DNA from: Lachnospiraceae bacterium
Lineage (GTDB): Bacteria; Bacillota; Clostridia; Lachnospirales; Lachnospiraceae
Assembly (NCBI GenBank): GCA_030531435.1
Contig: JAUNNN010000013.1
Coordinates: forward strand, 1 to 43,598
Direction of reading: 5' to 3'
DNA length: 43,598 nucleotides
Every line of letters starts with the position of its first letter. The stretch's first letter is position 1. The notes under the pieces are model-generated. The model saw nothing but the letters and a program-made list of their open reading frames with translations. It was not told the DNA's origin and ran no database searches. Below are positions 29,196 to 37,233 of this stretch, one piece after another. The position numbers were made by a program, and so were the translations under genes.

Positions 29196-31052
29196 TTATT
29201 CAAGTATGATATTTATACGTCCTGCACCATATGGATTCTCATAATCCATTTGATACCCTGAAAGCTTATTAAGTGGTGAATTTTTAGTATTAACTAAAGG
29301 ATACTCTCCTTCTTTTTCAAATGCTTCGAAATACATTCCTAAAATACTATAATCCTGTCCAACGAAATCAATTATCAATTCATCATCGCTAAACATACCT
29401 AGTCCATTACCACTATTTCTTAAAATGTAATTAATTCCACCAACTGTATATTTCTTTTCTAAATCTATATCTTCATATTTTGAAGATTCTTTATTATATA
29501 TTTTTACGTCCTTAACCCGATATGCTCCGTCAACTGCCTCAAACATACCATCGCCTTTTGTCTTAACACTTGAAGGAACTGTTGAATCAATTGTATACTG
29601 CATTCCTGCTACATGTAGGAAGCCACCATTTTCAGCTGGAATATCCCATTCATCATCCCACTCGCCTATTACTGTCGCTCCCATTTCAAGTGCATCAAGA
29701 ATCTGCTGTCCTGTTGCTTGAATCAAGCAAACCATATTACCAAATGGTTCCACAGCCTTAATATTCATATAAGTAATATCACCACTATCAAGCTGTGCTC
29801 TTATTCCACCACCATTTGCAATTGCGATATCACAATTGATATCAATTACATCGTTAAAATACCAATACACTGAATCAGAAATTATATCGCCTGAATTCAT
29901 CTCACGAGATCTAATCAAACGTTCACTTAAATCATCCGGATTATTTATATACATCGTAGTTGATAACTTAGCTACTTTCTCACCCATTTTATCCATAACA
30001 CGGTCATTGAGTTCTTTTTCTAATGAGGCAACCTTTGCGTCTACATTGTCATAAGAATTTATGAGTGATGATGTAACCTTATCATCATTTATCTCCATTA
30101 ATCCAATGTTGTTTAAGTATGATCCAGTCTGAGTAAGTAAAACCTCTTTTCCGCTTTTATCTTTAACAAGTTCATTTTCTATAACTGTGTGTGAATGGCC
30201 ATCAATAAATGCATCTAATCCTTCAACGTTAGCTATTACATCGTAGCTGCTGATGTTATTTCTTTTTTCGTCAACGCCTACACCAACATGGCCAATAGCT
30301 ATAATATAGTCGGCTTCTCCCCTAACTTTATCAATTGAATTCTGTACACTCTCGTACATATCTTTCGCGCCATTTACACCATCAATTGTATAAATGTATT
30401 CACCCTTCTCGTTTTGGAAATAAGTAGGTGTTGATGAAGTAATTGTTTCAGGCGTTGTAACTCCGATAAATGCAATTTTCTTTCCACCCATTTCGAATAT
30501 ATGACTATCATCAAGTGGATTTTCGCTTTCTACTAAAGCATGAAAATTACAACTGATGTATGGATAATTAGCCTCTTCTATTCTATTGAAGAATGCGTTC
30601 ATTCCAAAATCAAAGTCATGATTTCCAGGGGTTGCAAGATCATATCCACATGCATTCATTAACTCAATAATTGACTCGCCTTCATCAAATGCGCCATATA
30701 CATCTCCCTGTAACTCATCACCTGCATCAACGAGTATTACATCCTTTCCTTCAGCTTCCATATCACTTACAAGTGCTGCAACATTTGACATACGAAGTCC
30801 AGGCTTATCTTCGTCATTCTCATCCTTAACTGTATTGTATACGTAGCTATGAATATCGTTAGTATATACAATGTATATAGATTCAGCTTCTGTTGTATTT
30901 TCTTCAGAATCTGAATTCTCTGACACTACTTCAGTAGCCTTGTCAGCATTTTCTATTTTTTCGTTTGTAACATCATTCGTAACTTTTCCACAACCGACTA
31001 CAGCTAATGCAAGTATTGATATAACAATTGATTTTAATAATCTATTTCTCAT
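29196..31052 (-). CDS. Lipoprotein 5'-nucleotidase / metallophosphatase (UshA family)
   Basis: 618 residues from ATG 31052. A GTG 15 bp upstream is in frame but has no ribosome site. The lipoprotein signal ends LAVVGC (Cys21). The metallophosphatase domain has YTNDIHS, DAGDELQGD, GNHDFDFG, IAIGHVG and DGHSH, which are the di-metal ligands, with the C-terminal substrate domain starting near residue 380 (GGGIRAQL typical). It should remove phosphate from extracellular nucleotides such as AMP or UDP-sugars at the membrane surface. As last gene of the sulfur-amino-acid importer operon (11 bp after the ATPase gene), it may supply nucleosides or break down sulfur nucleotides, which is an inference. 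Confidence 0.9.
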   Translation of the reverse strand: MRNRLLKSIVISILALAVVGCGKVTNDVTNEKIENADKATEVVSENSDSEENTTEAESIYIVYTNDIHSYVYNTVKDENDEDKPGLRMSNVAALVSDMEAEGKDVILVDAGDELQGDVYGAFDEGESIIELMNACGYDLATPGNHDFDFGMNAFFNRIEEANYPYISCNFHALVESENPLDDSHIFEMGGKKIAFIGVTTPETITSSTPTYFQNEKGEYIYTIDGVNGAKDMYESVQNSIDKVRGEADYIIAIGHVGVGVDEKRNNISSYDVIANVEGLDAFIDGHSHTVIENELVKDKSGKEVLLTQTGSYLNNIGLMEINDDKVTSSLINSYDNVDAKVASLEKELNDRVMDKMGEKVAKLSTTMYINNPDDLSERLIRSREMNSGDIISDSVYWYFNDVIDINCDIAIANGGGIRAQLDSGDITYMNIKAVEPFGNMVCLIQATGQQILDALEMGATVIGEWDDEWDIPAENGGFLHVAGMQYTIDSTVPSSVKTKGDGMFEAVDGAYRVKDVKIYNKESSKYEDIDLEKKYTVGGINYILRNSGNGLGMFSDDELIIDFVGQDYSILGMYFEAFEKEGEYPLVNTKNSPLNKLSGYQMDYENPYGAGRINIILE

Positions 31053-31078
31053 ATAACCTGAACCCACGTTTTAATTTT

Positions 31079-31819
31079 TTATTTTATATATTTAAACGAA
31101 TCTAAAAATCTCTTAGCTCGTTCTGATTTAGGATTCTCAAAGAATTCCTCTGGACTACTTTCTTCAACTATATCGCCACCATCAATAAAGACAATACGGT
31201 CTGCAACAGCCCTTGCAAAAGCCATTTCATGAGTAACAATTATCATTGTTCTGCCTTCTTTTGCCAGTGACAAAACAACATCAAGAACCTCCTTTACCAT
31301 TTCAGGATCCAGTGCTGCTGTTACTTCGTCAAATAGAAGTATTTCAGGGTTCATTATCATTGCCCTTACAATGGCTACTCTCTGCTTCTGTCCACCTGAA
31401 AGCTGTCTTGGATAATTATCAGCTTTTGAAACAAGTCCAACTCTTTCAAGGAGCTTTCTTGCTTCTTTTTCTACCTCATCCTTATTTCTCTTCTGCACTT
31501 TTACAGGAGCCAAAACCACATTCTGGAGTATAGTTTTATGAGGGAAAAGATCATAGCTTTGAAAAACCATACCAATCTTTTCGTGTGTCTTACGTAGGTT
31601 TTTCTTATTAGGGTTAATTACTTCATCATGAAGTGAAACTCTTCCATCCTGGATTTCTTCAAGGCCATTAAGGCATCTTAAAAATGTACTTTTTCCGCAT
31701 CCAGATGGTCCGATAACTACAACGACTTCTCCTTTTTTTACTGTAATATTAATATCGTTAAGAACGGAAAATCCATCAAATTCCTTATGTAAATGTTCAA
31801 CTTTTAATATGTCTTCCAT
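31079..31819 (-). CDS. Polar amino-acid (cyst(e)ine-type) ABC transporter ATPase, GlnQ/TcyN family
   Basis: 246 residues. Walker A is GPSGCGKST, the signature LSGGQKQR, and Walker B ILLFDEVTAALDP, followed by the switch His in VTHEM. The length and sequence are those of polar amino-acid importer ATPases. It energises the two permeases encoded just upstream (1 bp gap). Together with them it makes a second, non-MetNI importer in the same operon; the CjaA-like half of the fused receptor points to cysteine or cystine as its substrate. Confidence 0.93.
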   Translation of the reverse strand: MEDILKVEHLHKEFDGFSVLNDINITVKKGEVVVVIGPSGCGKSTFLRCLNGLEEIQDGRVSLHDEVINPNKKNLRKTHEKIGMVFQSYDLFPHKTILQNVVLAPVKVQKRNKDEVEKEARKLLERVGLVSKADNYPRQLSGGQKQRVAIVRAMIMNPEILLFDEVTAALDPEMVKEVLDVVLSLAKEGRTMIIVTHEMAFARAVADRIVFIDGGDIVEESSPEEFFENPKSERAKRFLDSFKYIK

Positions 31820-31820
31820 A

Positions 31821-32534
31821 TCAGTTCTCCCACTTTTTCTCTAAATACTTTGATAGCTGACTAATAGGCCAGCAGGCAATAAAATACAATATAAATATTG
31901 TCGCAAAAATACCAAACGCTGCATTTGGCGATGTTTTTCTATTTGCCTCAATTATCTGCTGTCCCACCTTTAGAACTTCTACAATACCTATCATCATTAC
32001 AAGACTTGTAGTTTTAATCATACGTGTAATTAGGTTAATGGACAAAGGTAATAATCTACGAATAGTCTGAGGGATAATAACATACAAATATGTCTGGTAT
32101 TTGCTAAGCCCTAGAGCCTCACTACTTTCATACTGTATTAAAGGAATACTTATAAGAGATCCTCTTACAAGATCAGACATCTCTGCAGTACCCCAGAAAC
32201 TAAATACAATAACGGAAGCGGTTTCAGCTGTCAGATTAATATTCATAGCTTTAGTAGCACCAAAATACACAATAAAAAGCAATACCATCTGAGGCATAAT
32301 ACGTACAATTTCCAGATAAACTCTGGAAATAGCATTTATGACAGAGTTTTTAAGAGACATCAAAACTCCAAGAATTATGCCTAAAACAATACTAATTACC
32401 ACTGAAATAATACTGATTTTAAGAGCCACTAGGAGCCCTTCAAACAGTCTTATCATATTACTGCCTTTAAGCAGCACATCAAATCCAAATGTTTCAAAAA
32501 TCGAATTCACTACATCAATCTCCGTACATTCCAA
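31821..32534 (-). CDS. Polar amino-acid ABC transporter permease (second subunit)
   Basis: 237 residues with about five membrane helices and the HisM/GlnP-type coupling loop ESSEALGLSKYQTYLYVIIPQ. It overlaps the other permease gene by 20 bp, so translation is probably coupled. The two differ enough to form a heterodimeric channel like TcyL-TcyM. Confidence 0.92.
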   Translation of the reverse strand: MECTEIDVVNSIFETFGFDVLLKGSNMIRLFEGLLVALKISIISVVISIVLGIILGVLMSLKNSVINAISRVYLEIVRIMPQMVLLFIVYFGATKAMNINLTAETASVIVFSFWGTAEMSDLVRGSLISIPLIQYESSEALGLSKYQTYLYVIIPQTIRRLLPLSINLITRMIKTTSLVMMIGIVEVLKVGQQIIEANRKTSPNAAFGIFATIFILYFIACWPISQLSKYLEKKWEN

Positions 32535-33174
32535 ATCTTGTTTTCTTTTCTACTATTGTTCCAATAATTGAAACTGGCAACAACATAATGATATAGAAAA
32601 TAACTAAAAGGAACAGACACTCCGTCGTTCTATAATATAATCCAATTAAATCTTTGGCAGTAAACATCAAATCCATAAGACTTATTGCAGAAAAGACACT
32701 TGTTTCTTTTAACAAAAAAATAACATTTGCCACTATCGCAGTAATGCTCATAGTGAACATCTGTGGAAAAACAATCAGAAAAAACATCTGACTCTTACTA
32801 AATCCCAACGCTGTTGCACTTTCGAGCTGTGATTTTGACACTGACAAAAGACCACTTCTGATGGATTCTGCCATATAACTTCCGCCAAGCAATCCCAGTC
32901 CAACAATTCCACAAGTCTGTGCTGAAATCATTATTCCTAGCTTTGGCAATCCAAAATAAATAAAAAATAACTGTACAAGCAATGGTGTGTTTCTGAATAA
33001 TTCAATATAAACTTTAACAATCGCTGAAAGTACTGGTACTTTAAAATAAAGAATAAATGCAGATACGACACCTAATACAAATGCCAGCAAAATTCCTATC
33101 CAACCTATTTTAATTGTAAGTAAAAAAGCCTCTTTGTATAAGGGTAAGTACGATGTAATCGTCGAAAAATCCAT
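32515..33174 (-). CDS. Polar amino-acid ABC transporter permease (first subunit)
   Basis: 219 residues with about five membrane helices. It has NTPLLVQLFFIYFGLP and the coupling loop ESATALGFSKSQMFFLIVFPQ, both HisQ/GlnP-type signatures. It follows metI by 12 bp and overlaps the partner permease gene. With that partner and the following ATPase it is a complete cyst(e)ine-type importer lacking its own receptor gene, because the receptor is the fused lipoprotein at the start of the operon. Confidence 0.92.
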   Translation of the reverse strand: MDFSTITSYLPLYKEAFLLTIKIGWIGILLAFVLGVVSAFILYFKVPVLSAIVKVYIELFRNTPLLVQLFFIYFGLPKLGIMISAQTCGIVGLGLLGGSYMAESIRSGLLSVSKSQLESATALGFSKSQMFFLIVFPQMFTMSITAIVANVIFLLKETSVFSAISLMDLMFTAKDLIGLYYRTTECLFLLVIFYIIMLLPVSIIGTIVEKKTRFGMYGD

Positions 33175-33186
33175 AATTAAATCATC

Positions 33187-33849
33187 CTATTTCTTTCTAT
33201 GATCAAGTCGCGCTGAGACTTTTGCTCCAACATTCTGAATAATCTGGAAAATTAAAATCAAAAGAATAACAGTCACTATCATAATATCTGTCTGCCATCT
33301 GTAGTAACCATATCTTACAGCGATATCGCCTAAGCCCCCGCCACCTACAGTTCCTGACATTGCAGAATATCCTAACAATATACCTGTTGTGATTGTAGCT
33401 CCTGTAATAAGTGATGTTTTTGCCTCTACCAATAACACCTTAAAAATTATCTGTATATTGCTGGCACCCATAGCTTTAGCTGCCTCAATAACACCTGCAT
33501 CAACTTCATTAAGTGATGATTCTACAACTCTTGCAATATAAGGAGCTGCGCATATTACAAGTGGAACTATTGTTGCAGTTGAACCATAGCTTTTACCCGC
33601 AACTAACCTTGTGAATGGTATAAGTAATATAAGAAGAATAAGGAACGGAATACTTCTAACTACATTACAAATAATATCAAGTATTCTGTATATTATCTTA
33701 TTTGGTTTTAATCCTGTCTCCCTTGTCACATTGAGCACAATACCCATTGGAAGACCAATAATATATCCTACTAAAGTGGAAACAAGAGTCATATATAATG
33801 TATCTCTTATTCCTTCTAACAGCATGCTAATAACTTTTCCATCAAACAT
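33187..33849 (-). CDS. metI: Methionine ABC transporter permease
   Basis: 220 residues, the normal length of MetI, with five membrane helices. The motif GLPMGIVLNVT near the N-terminus, RSIPFLILLI and the coupling loop VIEAAKAMGASNIQIIFKVLL are MetI-type. It forms a homodimer channel with MetN for D- or L-methionine and related substrates. It overlaps the metN 3' end by 8 bp. Confidence 0.95.
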   Translation of the reverse strand: MFDGKVISMLLEGIRDTLYMTLVSTLVGYIIGLPMGIVLNVTRETGLKPNKIIYRILDIICNVVRSIPFLILLILLIPFTRLVAGKSYGSTATIVPLVICAAPYIARVVESSLNEVDAGVIEAAKAMGASNIQIIFKVLLVEAKTSLITGATITTGILLGYSAMSGTVGGGGLGDIAVRYGYYRWQTDIMIVTVILLILIFQIIQNVGAKVSARLDHRKK

Positions 33850-34855
33850 TTTCTTTTACCTCCGATACACATAGTCCTCTCTCATTAAGGTAATCAATTA
33901 TCTTTGCCTGAAGTGCTTCATCCTCAGGAAGTCCTAATAACATTTCACCCTTAGCAGTTCCACCAACATTTCTAGTATCGGCTTTTAATATATTAATAGG
34001 AGTATTAAATTGCAAAATAGCATTAGATATAACTGGTTCATATGCTGAATTTTCTGAGAACACAATACGTATAACTTTTTCTGTATCAAGAGACTCAACA
34101 GGCGAATATCTAACTGGTTTTCCAGAGATTAATTCTCTTGCTGCATCCGTGGAAGGATTTTCAAAAATCTGTTCTACCAAGCCTTCTTCAACTAACTTAC
34201 CATTTTCAATAATTGCTACTTTATTACAAATATCTGTAACAACAGACATCTGGTGTGTAATTACAACAATTGTAATGCCAAATTTGCTATTTATATCCTT
34301 TAGAAGCGACAATATAGACTCTGTAGTCTGTGGATCTAGGGCACTAGTTGCCTCGTCGCAAAGAAGTATCTTTGGATTAGTTGCTAATGCTCTTGCAATG
34401 GCAACTCTCTGCTTCTGACCACCAGATAACTGTGAAGGATATGCCTTTTCCTTTTCAGACATATTAACAAGACCAAGAAGTTCCTTAGCTCTAGCTTTTG
34501 CCTCTTTCTTTCTTACTCCAGCTATTTCCAGAGGAAAACAAATATTGTCAATAACTGTTTTCTGTTCAAGAAGATTAAAGCCCTGGAAAATCATTCCTAT
34601 TTCGCTTCTCTTTTTTCTAAGTTCTTTTTCTGAAAGACTGGATAAGTCCACACCTTCAACAATAATCTGTCCATCTGAAGGTTTTTCCAAGAAGTTTATA
34701 GAACGAACAAGCGTGCTTTTTCCAGCACCAGACATACCTATTATTCCGTATATATCACCAGATTCAATAGAAAGGTTCACGTCATCAAGTGCCGTTACCG
34801 TATATCCTTTAACATCAAACTCTTTTGTAAGGTTTTTAATTTCAATTATACTCAT
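33842..34855 (-). CDS. metN: Methionine ABC transporter ATPase with NIL domain
   Basis: 337 residues. The ABC domain (1-245) has Walker A GMSGAGKST, signature LSGGQKQR and Walker B LLCDEATSALDP. The C-terminal NIL domain (about 265-337, with GGTAKGEMLLGLP) is the site where methionine binds and shuts down transport in MetNI (trans-inhibition). It is 66 bp after the fused receptor gene, with a strong hairpin in between. Confidence 0.96.
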   Translation of the reverse strand: MSIIEIKNLTKEFDVKGYTVTALDDVNLSIESGDIYGIIGMSGAGKSTLVRSINFLEKPSDGQIIVEGVDLSSLSEKELRKKRSEIGMIFQGFNLLEQKTVIDNICFPLEIAGVRKKEAKARAKELLGLVNMSEKEKAYPSQLSGGQKQRVAIARALATNPKILLCDEATSALDPQTTESILSLLKDINSKFGITIVVITHQMSVVTDICNKVAIIENGKLVEEGLVEQIFENPSTDAARELISGKPVRYSPVESLDTEKVIRIVFSENSAYEPVISNAILQFNTPINILKADTRNVGGTAKGEMLLGLPEDEALQAKIIDYLNERGLCVSEVKENV

Positions 34856-34879: not shown

Positions 34880-34910
34880 TAAAAAAAGGAGGGCACTCAT
34901 TGCCCTCCTT
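34880..34910 (-). terminator. Intra-operon hairpin between the fused receptor gene and metN
   Basis: A perfect 10-bp stem (34886-34895 with 34901-34910) with a 5-nt loop is followed by TTTTTTTAG on the minus strand, a full intrinsic terminator. Partial read-through would give much more receptor than MetN, MetI and later proteins. Confidence 0.85.
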
Positions 34911-34921
34911 AATACTATGTA

Positions 34922-36577
34922 TTATTTCTGATAAAATACAACTGCTCCATCATATGTATCTTTGATAAAGTTCTGTATTTCCTCTGATCTAAGTACATCC
35001 ACCAAAGCCTTAATCTTAGGAGCGTTTTCATTTCCTTCTTTAACAGCAATGATATTTACATATGTCTTTGCCGCAATTGAATCAGATGCTTCATAAGCGA
35101 TTGAATCTTTTCCAACAGAATATCCGGCTTCAAGAGCATAGTTTCCATTAAGGACAACAAATGAAACTTCGTTTACCACTCTAGCAACCTGCGCTGCTTC
35201 AAGCTCTACAAATTCAATATCATTTGGATTATCTATTATATCATTAACTGTAGCTGTAAGTCCAACATCATCTTTAAGTTTTAATAATCCATTATCCTGA
35301 AGAAGTAAAAGTGCACGAGCTTCGTTTGTTGTATCGTTAGGAATTGCTATTGCATCTCCCTTTGCTATTTCTGATAAATCTTTCTTTGTTCCTGGGTAAA
35401 TACCAAATGGCTCATAGTGAATATCGCCTGCATCTACAAGGTGTGTTCCCTGTTCATCATTGAAGCTATCAAGATAAGGAACATGCTGGAAGTAGTTTGC
35501 ATCAAATTCGCCTGATTCAACTACAAGGTTTGGCTGAACATAATCTTCGAATTCAACAACTTCTAACTTATAACCGTTCTGTTCAAGAATTGGTGCTGCT
35601 GCTGCAAGAATCTCTGCATGAGGTGTTGTTGATGCTGCAATCTTAATTGTTTCACCATTTCCTGCAGGTACATCAGCACTTTCTGATGATGAAGCATCTG
35701 CTCCGGCTACTTTTCCGCCTTCAACAACAAGTGTATCTTCGTAGTCTGCTCCGTATGTATCTATAAGTGTTGCTTCATAGTCTGCATGGAAGAAGTTTTC
35801 CTTGCCAAGACTTTCAATTTCTGAATTTAACCAATCAAGAAGTGTTGTGTTACCCTTTGACACTGCAGGAGCAATTGTATCCTGGCTACCAAGTGAAGGA
35901 ATTCCAACTACATAGCCTTCATTTTCAAGTGCATATGCAATAACCTCTGTGTTATCATTTGCCCAAGCTACACCTGTACCATTTTCGAATGATGTCTTAG
36001 CTGTAGCATATGTATCAAACTTCTGAAGCTTGATGTCTGGATAGTTCTTTTCAAGATATGTTTCTGCTGTTGTTCCTGAAATAACTATTACCTGATCATT
36101 CTCACCAATCTGATCAAGGCTTTCAATTACGTTATCCTCATGAGATACAACGCCTAAAGCCACATTCATGTAAGGAAGAGCAAAGTCAACTTTTTCAGCT
36201 CTCTCTTCTGTTACTGTAAAGTTAGCAAGAACTATATCTACCTTACCTGTTTCAAGATATTCAACACGGCTTGCTGCCTCTGTTGATACATAATTAATTT
36301 TAAGACCTAAATCCTTTCCAATTCTTTCAGCGAAATAAACATCATATCCTTTATATTCGCCATTCTCATCAACATATCCAAATGGGTTTTTATCTGAAAA
36401 AACTCCAATATTGATTGTTCCGTCAGCCTTTATCTCATCAAGTGTTCTGAATATCTGCTTTTCAGCAGATTCAGCTGTAGCTGCTTCGTTGCCTTTTCCG
36501 CATCCTGCTAAAGTGCCTACAGCAAGTAACGCTGCGGTAAGCGTACCTAATAATTTTTTCACAAAACTTTTTCTCAT
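34922..36577 (-). CDS. Fused dual receptor lipoprotein: CjaA-like cysteine-binding domain plus MetQ/NlpA methionine-binding domain
   Basis: 551 residues, twice the size of either receptor family. The lipoprotein signal ends LAGC (Cys26). Residues 43-288 form an SBP_bac_3 domain closely like the cysteine receptor CjaA, with NIGVFSDKNPFGYVDENG, RVEYLETGKVDIVLANFT, DFALPYMNVALGV, IAPAVSKG and a C-terminal VVEGGKV. A Ser/Ala/Gly-rich linker (about 289-308) follows. Residues 309-551 form an NlpA/MetQ domain with HAEILAAAAPILEQNGYKLE, ANYFQHVPYLDSF, AIPNDTTNEARALLLLQ and TYVNIIAV. The frame is open throughout, so this is a real fusion. It precedes metN, metI and a cyst(e)ine-type permease/ATPase set, so one anchored protein likely feeds both transporters. 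Substrates are inferred from family likeness. Confidence 0.93.
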   Translation of the reverse strand: MRKSFVKKLLGTLTAALLAVGTLAGCGKGNEAATAESAEKQIFRTLDEIKADGTINIGVFSDKNPFGYVDENGEYKGYDVYFAERIGKDLGLKINYVSTEAASRVEYLETGKVDIVLANFTVTEERAEKVDFALPYMNVALGVVSHEDNVIESLDQIGENDQVIVISGTTAETYLEKNYPDIKLQKFDTYATAKTSFENGTGVAWANDNTEVIAYALENEGYVVGIPSLGSQDTIAPAVSKGNTTLLDWLNSEIESLGKENFFHADYEATLIDTYGADYEDTLVVEGGKVAGADASSSESADVPAGNGETIKIAASTTPHAEILAAAAPILEQNGYKLEVVEFEDYVQPNLVVESGEFDANYFQHVPYLDSFNDEQGTHLVDAGDIHYEPFGIYPGTKKDLSEIAKGDAIAIPNDTTNEARALLLLQDNGLLKLKDDVGLTATVNDIIDNPNDIEFVELEAAQVARVVNEVSFVVLNGNYALEAGYSVGKDSIAYEASDSIAAKTYVNIIAVKEGNENAPKIKALVDVLRSEEIQNFIKDTYDGAVVFYQK

Positions 36578-36660: not shown

Positions 36661-37233
36661 CTATAAATTATACTTATAGCAAGCATCTTTAAATGTAATA
36701 AATTCCTCTGGATTCTCTTCCTTTTCTTTTATTACCTTGTCCATCCATACAACACTATACCATCTACCGAACTTATACCCACATTTTATGTGTCTACCTG
36801 CCATTTCAAAACCCATATGCGCATGAAAGTTTTCACTATCACATGTTAAATACTCATCTTCCTCTTCAGGACTTGCTATACATGCATGAACCATATTAAC
36901 ATTCTGAAGTAATAAAAATTCTTCTAATTTCAAATAAAGACTCTTTCCATATCCTTTATTGTGATGATTCATATCAACATAAACAGACAGTTCTGCTGAA
37001 TGACTGTACGCAGCTCTTGGATAAAATGTACCGGCATACGCATATCCGACGATATCCCCATTTTCTTCCATTACTAGATAGGGATATTTCTCAAGGGTGT
37101 TTTTTATTCTTTCCCTAAACTCTTCCACACTTGGAACTTCATATTCAAATGTAATTGCAGTTTTAGTAACATATGGCTCATATATTCTTCTAATAGCCTC
37201 AGCATCATTAACGCTGGCCACTCTAATTTCCAT
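36661..37233 (-). CDS. GNAT N-acetyltransferase, phosphinothricin/methionine-sulfone acetyltransferase (PAT/YncA-like) subfamily
   Basis: 190 residues. It begins IRVASVNDAEAIRRIYEPYV, typical of PAT enzymes, and has AELSVYVDMNHHNKGYGKSLY, the acetyl-CoA pyrophosphate loop (family Q/RxxGxG; here NKGYGK), and NFHAHMGFEMAGRH followed by GRWYSVVWMDK. Relatives acetylate the amino group of methionine sulfone, methionine sulfoximine or phosphinothricin. It lies just upstream of the sulfur-amino-acid importer operon, which has its own promoter, so a shared theme of oxidised methionine handling is possible. The insert EEEDEYLTCDSE near 125-140 is longer than usual. Confidence 0.87.
   Translation of the reverse strand: MEIRVASVNDAEAIRRIYEPYVTKTAITFEYEVPSVEEFRERIKNTLEKYPYLVMEENGDIVGYAYAGTFYPRAAYSHSAELSVYVDMNHHNKGYGKSLYLKLEEFLLLQNVNMVHACIASPEEEDEYLTCDSENFHAHMGFEMAGRHIKCGYKFGRWYSVVWMDKVIKEKEENPEEFITFKDACYKYNL

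Follow-up and report, generated by a model that had tools for sequence, protein, structure and literature searches.

A fused two-domain lipoprotein receptor of Lachnospiraceae, encoded beside two importers and predicted to serve cysteine and methionine uptake

In the window, the whole stretch of 43,598 nucleotides of Lachnospiraceae DNA analyzed here (assembly GCA_030531435.1, contig JAUNNN010000013.1), we identified on the minus strand a fused two-domain lipoprotein receptor of 551 aa (34922..36577; ATG start, no internal stop), which is followed by the genes of two ABC importers. As far as kinship and gene order indicate, this one anchored receptor probably serves both importers, one for cysteine and the other for methionine. 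The lipid-anchored protein would thereby comprise two complete substrate-binding proteins placed head to tail, of which the anchored N-terminal half would capture cysteine (perhaps cystine) and dock on the PAAT importer PermA-PermB-AtpP, while the C-terminal half would capture methionine and dock on MetNI, tethered by a flexible linker instead of a lipid anchor of its own. Because two receptors reside in one anchored protein, the two uptake systems would share an anchor and probably also a single transcript. Usually a binding protein is assigned to a single importer, which several receptors at times share. This arrangement would be turned around by a receptor whose two heads stem from different families and whose gene precedes those of two importers. 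Cysteine and methionine supply may furthermore matter to the gut or rumen community.

A more far-reaching version of this proposal is that the receptor physically couples the two ABC importers, its heads docking on PAAT and MetNI either simultaneously or exclusively, with the loading of one sulfur amino acid altering import of the other, and with MetNI and PAAT held close to each other in the membrane. We consider such coupling rather unlikely; the fusion makes it testable whether tethered binding proteins link the uptake of two nutrients.

A single frame with two receptor domains

The receptor carries the lipobox LAGC (36500..36511, minus strand), whose Cys26 is the lipid anchor predicted from the sequence and was invariant in a 71-row alignment. 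Pfam assigned an SBP_bac_3 domain to residues 55-260 (35798..36415, minus strand; E 1e-28, 100.2 bits versus a cut-off of 26.4), which is of the cysteine-receptor type by its solved-structure matches, and Lipoprotein_9, the NlpA/MetQ half, to residues 311-547 (34937..35647, minus strand; E 2.9e-81, 272.6 bits versus a cut-off of 27), where methionine-contact residues are present. A linker, partly of low model confidence, spans about residues 289-308 (35654..35713, minus strand). These boundaries fit an earlier note made from the sequence alone, which had described one open frame with a lipobox, an SBP_bac_3 domain at residues 43-288 and an NlpA/MetQ domain at residues 309-551; the note gave no strand, which is minus. 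It had also held the two families to be unrelated in sequence, and at the profile level this is so, as hhalign of the two halves returned a probability of 0.9%. Despite their unrelated profiles, both halves are two-lobed binding proteins.

The structure prediction suggested in the same note was carried out with AlphaFold2 and yielded two well-folded domains with a low-confidence linker between them. pLDDT fell below 50 at residues 1-3, 8-38 and 292-300, the linker received no confident placement, and the pTM of 0.51, set against a mean pLDDT of 86.8, suggests that the halves may be oriented freely. In fused relatives, the stretch from a Tyr-Gly near the end of the SBP_bac_3 half to the NlpA half measures 22-54 residues and is variable in sequence. 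The unfused SBP_bac_3 proteins inspected stop shortly past LVVEGG or a close variant, that is, where the fusion linker begins, with the exception of one protein with a long tail (L155). The NlpA half, in turn, begins where the mature unfused NlpA begins, after the spacer of the latter.

Occurrence in related bacteria

A contig scan for relatives returned at least 536 matches, of which the best 80 were kept. Both halves lay in one open frame in 80/80 of these loci, a few being cut by contig ends; since relatives were ranked by match and the best 80 of at least 536 favor full-length matches, this count tells nothing about the fraction that is fused. Most of the window's nearest relatives are titled Lachnospiraceae among the matches listed, and the source bacterium is related to species of gut and rumen. 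In an unranked survey of the same genus, the full fusion was present in 17 of 37 genomes, several of them incomplete, and one further match was cut by a contig end. Further unranked surveys recovered it in 6 out of 120 family genomes (the sixth, G069, appeared as two matches but has one 590-aa frame) and, at thresholds that would miss distant fusions, in 4 out of 245 genomes for the order, 3 out of 243 for the class and 2 out of 299 for the phylum. All of these surveys include the window's genome, and their genome samples overlap. Another family of the class is represented by G484, whose fusion (L151) is 59% identical. The search for the two-domain architecture and its spread that the earlier note had recommended thus revealed many related bacteria with the same fusion, and we regard architecture and spread as solid. 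Single-domain annotation can hide the other half of such proteins in gut and rumen Lachnospiraceae.

The earlier note had also named a sequencing error joining two genes as a finding that would undo its reading. Artefacts of sequencing or assembly may occur in such data, and a possible example is L156:171-1787 (G603, a genome 59% complete), where an SBP_bac_3 half runs in frame into the sheet domain at the C-terminus of a PLP decarboxylase, probably as an assembly chimera or deletion. None was found at the window locus. The fusion recurs in one frame among relatives, in all of the best 80 of at least 536, and 17 of the 37 genus genomes span both halves, which leaves an erroneous join with a negligible probability; a join by sequencing error or chance is ruled out.

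Two importers behind the receptor

The earlier note had left the importer genes out. They follow in the order receptor-MetN-MetI-PermA-PermB-AtpP, all in the same direction on the minus strand, with a gap of 66 bases between receptor and MetN and with overlaps or gaps of at most 12 bases between the later genes. MetN is an ATPase with a C-terminal NIL domain (33842..34855; TIGR02314 361.8 bits, below the cut-off of 499.7; NIL 6.4e-20), and MetI is its neighboring permease (33187..33849; PRK10782 224.1 bits, above the cut-off of 212). The PAAT permeases PermA (32515..33174) and PermB (31821..32534) both match BPD_transp_1 as well as HEQRo_perm_3TM (100.3 and 68.2 bits, respectively, cut-off 42.2), and the best model of the PAAT ATPase AtpP (31079..31819) is that of L-cystine TcyN, with 299.9 bits, below the cut-off of 406. 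Specific NCBIfam models were hence passed by MetI, but not by MetN, the PAAT ATPase or either receptor half.

Two further frames border the cluster. A 5'-nucleotidase lipoprotein frame (29196-31067) lies 11 bases past the PAAT ATPase gene and may belong to the same transcript, and a GNAT acetyltransferase upstream of the receptor (36661-37233) resembles ArsN1 family B at 160.1 bits, below the cut-off of 210. The window's genome (2.19 Mb, 97.45% complete) also encodes a second NlpA and a second MetNI. In the former, a lipoprotein at C60:19-750 (L119), D and A replace two pocket tyrosines, and the latter stands at the start of another contig (C76:193-816, L120); together they are perhaps one split system with another ligand.

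The comparison of gene order covered 87 fusion loci, namely the best 80 of at least 536 relatives and 7 later ones, with the window copy and three contig repeats dropped. The window's order was the commonest (53 of 87), and six loci had the PAAT genes before the receptor and MetNI after it. Among the 64 well-covered loci, defined by at least 4.5 kb downstream, 55 contained both MetNI and PAAT, 9 contained PAAT alone and none was without PAAT. In 12 genomes with a MetNI-less fusion cluster, MetI was encoded elsewhere in 12/12 (at least 206.8 bits), although several of these genomes are closely related and therefore stand for fewer than 12 events. This distant MetNI adjoined an unfused NlpA in 11 of the 12; the exception, G004, had no receptor in the 16 kb fetched for its MetNI and an unfused NlpA on another contig. 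Since MetNI has its own NlpA beside it in 11 of the PAAT-only genomes, the fused NlpA half is not the sole methionine receptor there.

Among the 69 fusion loci where a complete MetN lies nearby, 43 have a MetN with the C-terminal NIL domain and 26 have one without it (e.g., L049-L057 and L059-L062). The NIL domain carries methionine feedback inhibition, so that the clusters with a NIL-less MetN may have lost it.

Standalone relatives of the two halves indicate which half goes with which importer. A standalone SBP_bac_3 protein adjoined the same PAAT genes in 12/12 loci fetched (12 of 18 match rows), and a standalone NlpA adjoined MetNI in 11/12 loci fetched (12 of 54 rows; L135 was the miss), where the unfused loci were chosen mostly from high-scoring rows and one of the eleven, L136, also has PAAT permeases alongside. 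In G042, one contig ends with MetN-MetI-NlpA-PermA-PermB and another with PermB-AtpP-SBP3, both ending inside PermB, which suggests an unfused version of the joint cluster, provided that the two contigs join. Two single genomes show what look like partial losses. In L154 (G341), the SBP_bac_3 half has been lost in frame, leaving signal peptide, last SBP_bac_3 residues, linker and an intact NlpA half, with shortened PermB and AtpP frames in a decaying cluster; in L155 (G247), an SBP_bac_3 half with a linker-like tail is present together with PAAT and without an NlpA half. With one genome each, both fit an SBP_bac_3 half that goes with PAAT and an NlpA half that is independent of it.

An arrangement resembling GlnPQ would explain the same clusters differently: both halves would feed PAAT and widen its substrate range, and a separate MetQ would serve MetNI, a mere neighbor in the cluster. 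The presence of PAAT in 64/64 well-covered loci, with MetNI in 55, speaks for it, as do the separate MetNI with its own NlpA in 11 of the 12 PAAT-only genomes and a reverse-order fusion in G611 (L161), which adjoins only PAAT-type permease and ATPase frames in the 10 kb fetched, a separate MetNI and NlpA being encoded elsewhere in that genome. It is opposed by the 11/12 loci in which an unfused NlpA adjoins MetNI and by L154, where the NlpA half stayed intact while PermB and AtpP became shortened. In addition, we know of no NlpA-type receptor that docks on PAAT permeases. On balance, we judge joint feeding of PAAT to be improbable. The delivery of cysteine to PAAT and methionine to MetNI, as the earlier note had proposed, is favored by the importer genes following the receptor, the expected sorting of unfused kin and conserved binding residues; what does not carry over to all clusters is the methionine part, as MetNI is missing in 9 of 64. 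Kinship and gene order together lend good support to this predicted pairing of each half with an importer.

Predicted ligands

The solved structures nearest to the N-terminal half are 2yjp (E 2.8e-64, 48% identity) and 1xt8 (E 2.3e-60, 45% identity), titled L-cysteine and cysteine receptors. The latter we take to be CjaA, and the description of this half as CjaA-like in the earlier note agrees with both structures. 2yjp is NGO2014, according to passages of PMC7170509. Of 17 positions of the SBP_bac_3 half, chosen by motif and not taken from a published contact list, 14 were identical in 84/84 fused sequences and each of the remaining three in 82 or more. The NCBIfam cystine-receptor model PRK11260 scored 81.9 bits, below its cut-off of 312. 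We conclude that the SBP_bac_3 half likely belongs with the PAAT cysteine receptors of the CjaA/Ngo2014 type, with cysteine as its predicted ligand.

For the NlpA half, the methionine contacts reported in part of PMC6739813 for MetQ of N. meningitidis (R156, N213, N238, Y81, F98, H100 and Y103) correspond to R421, N477, N508, Y346, F363, H365 and Y368 of the window's receptor, all seven as expected. Contacts were mapped through an alignment of E. coli MetQ, whose N229 (equivalent to N238, as given in the same part of PMC6739813) aligns with N508, and motifs served to match the other six. Six of the seven were unchanged in 84/84 distinct fused sequences, which include the window's own copy (83/83 for N508, as one sequence ends short), and the seventh, F363, was F in 76/84, V in 4 and M in 4. 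The nearest solved structure, 4ib2, is 74% identical in the structural match, and its title names no ligand; the NCBIfam MetQ models scored below their cut-offs (TIGR00363 165.5 versus 228.85; PRK11063 174 versus 374). Methionine is the likely ligand predicted for this half. For both halves, the identity of the ligand is predicted from kinship.

The same architecture might bind other ligands, with cystine or another amino acid in the SBP_bac_3 half and a Met-containing dipeptide or D-Met in the NlpA half. The V or M at F363 in 8/84 fused sequences would be compatible with this, as would the top amino-acid NCBIfam model for the SBP_bac_3 half, which is that of lysine/arginine/ornithine and outscores the cystine model (100.1 versus 81.9 bits), and FliY of E. 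coli, which binds cystine, L-Cys and D-Cys as reported in passages of PMC7170509. However, the best solved relatives of the N-terminal half, at 45-48% identity, are titled cysteine receptors, and the window possesses the full set of methionine-receptor contacts, and we consider a different pair of ligands possible but clearly less likely than cysteine and methionine.

Origin and constraint

Fused and unfused sequences are intermingled on the tree. A single clade for 46 fused SBP_bac_3 halves versus 14 unfused ones was rejected (AU p 4e-55), with a hand-picked subset of fused halves and an alignment restricted to columns occupied in 60% of rows or more, possibly including some signal-peptide or linker columns. 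To explain the NlpA tree, no fewer than 6 changes of state are needed, and starred branches force 2 of them; the unfused NlpA proteins from G003 and G001 are nested within fused sequences, with starred support, as a split-off would be. On this basis we claim neither a single origin of the fusion nor several.

The reverse-order fusion (L161:3999-5750, 584 aa) was found in the same genus and has NlpA first and a different SBP_bac_3 second. A search of 200 genomes from the family at E 1e-125 returned no second full-length case. Because of its order, these two receptor types seem to have been joined more than once, as judged from a single case, whose genome shows 6% contamination.

Strong purifying selection acts on both halves, as seen in nearest-neighbor pairs that contain no PAAT-only locus: the 35 of 54 such pairs for which dN/dS could be computed gave medians of 0.036 for SBP_bac_3 and 0.053 for NlpA. 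This bears on the idea that transport relies on the SBP_bac_3 half alone, the NlpA half being a passenger or serving in capture or retention without delivery. Where a pair included a PAAT-only fusion (counting also L011, which is almost a copy of L021), the NlpA half evolved relatively faster, with a median NlpA/SBP3 dN ratio of 1.92 (n=10) versus 1.39 (n=54), but with a Mann-Whitney p of 0.11; the ratio reached 7.3 in L017-L022 and 3.1 in a control pair, and over all pairs the medians were alike (1.58 and 1.53). We accordingly rejected relaxed constraint for the NlpA half of PAAT-only loci, seeing a trend only. Moreover, in the 9 of these 10 pairs that allowed its computation, dN/dS of the NlpA half did not exceed 0.061, and conservation extends to the methionine contacts; both argue against a passenger, and we consider this explanation very unlikely.

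Relation to known systems

The fused receptor appears to represent tandem substrate-binding domains in an unusual variant form rather than a new kind of system. Its closest measured precedent is GlnPQ (PDB 6h30), whose tandem substrate-binding domains act largely independently on a 14-residue linker, according to parts of PMC8025302. As described there, both systems have two substrate-binding domains in one polypeptide on a short flexible linker and with different ligands, which are predicted in our case. In contrast, the substrate-binding domains of GlnPQ are attached to the transmembrane domain of a single importer and both belong to sub-cluster F-IV (same parts of PMC8025302), whereas no permease is part of the fused receptor, a lipoprotein with halves from two Pfam families and genes for two importers beside it. 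MetNIQ of E. coli and N. meningitidis, as presented in PMC6739813 and PMC8416018, likewise has an NlpA-family domain with methionine contacts and adjacent genes for MetI and a NIL-containing MetN. Unlike in MetNIQ, the NlpA half is without its own lipid anchor, hangs behind another receptor and scores below the NCBIfam MetQ cut-offs. Similarly, the PDB chains of Ngo2014 (2yjp) and CjaA (1xt8) are single receptors of 291 and 292 residues, whereas the N-terminal half is fused.

AdcA consists of one binding protein and a ZinT domain and works for one importer; in this it differs from the fused receptor, which holds two full receptors. Both share the principle of one lipoprotein with two ligand-recruiting domains, as outlined for AdcA-type zinc lipoproteins in part of PMC7858048. 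Among the top-ranked results of a search of openly licensed papers, no description of an SBP3-NlpA fusion was found, and a term search of the main text of a solute-binding-protein survey of 49 model strains returned no "fused", "fusion" or "tandem".

Control of expression

Between the receptor and transporter genes lies a terminator-like hairpin with a T run (34886..34910, minus strand; 10 pairs, tail TTTTTAGTTT, core stem -14.5 kcal/mol), by which the ratio of receptor to transporters might perhaps be set. Internal terminators of this kind keep receptor above transporter transcripts in cellulolytic Clostridia, as reported in PMC9045158. As the region contains 5 terminator-like sites versus 3.0 (sd 1.7) in shuffles, it is only the strength and place of this hairpin that speak for it. 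A hairpin of -8 kcal/mol or better occurred in just 10 of the 87 fusion loci (including the best 80 of at least 536 relatives) with a strict script, so that the feature is either not general or the filter too strict.

Rfam gave no match in the window, and no riboswitch or T-box was found directly before the receptor in 10 and 9 relative loci and in 14 unfused loci. In L064, a SAM riboswitch is located about 6 kb before the fusion, and a Clostridiales-1 RNA (1959-2123, 119 bits) reaches to just before the fusion gene in L052.
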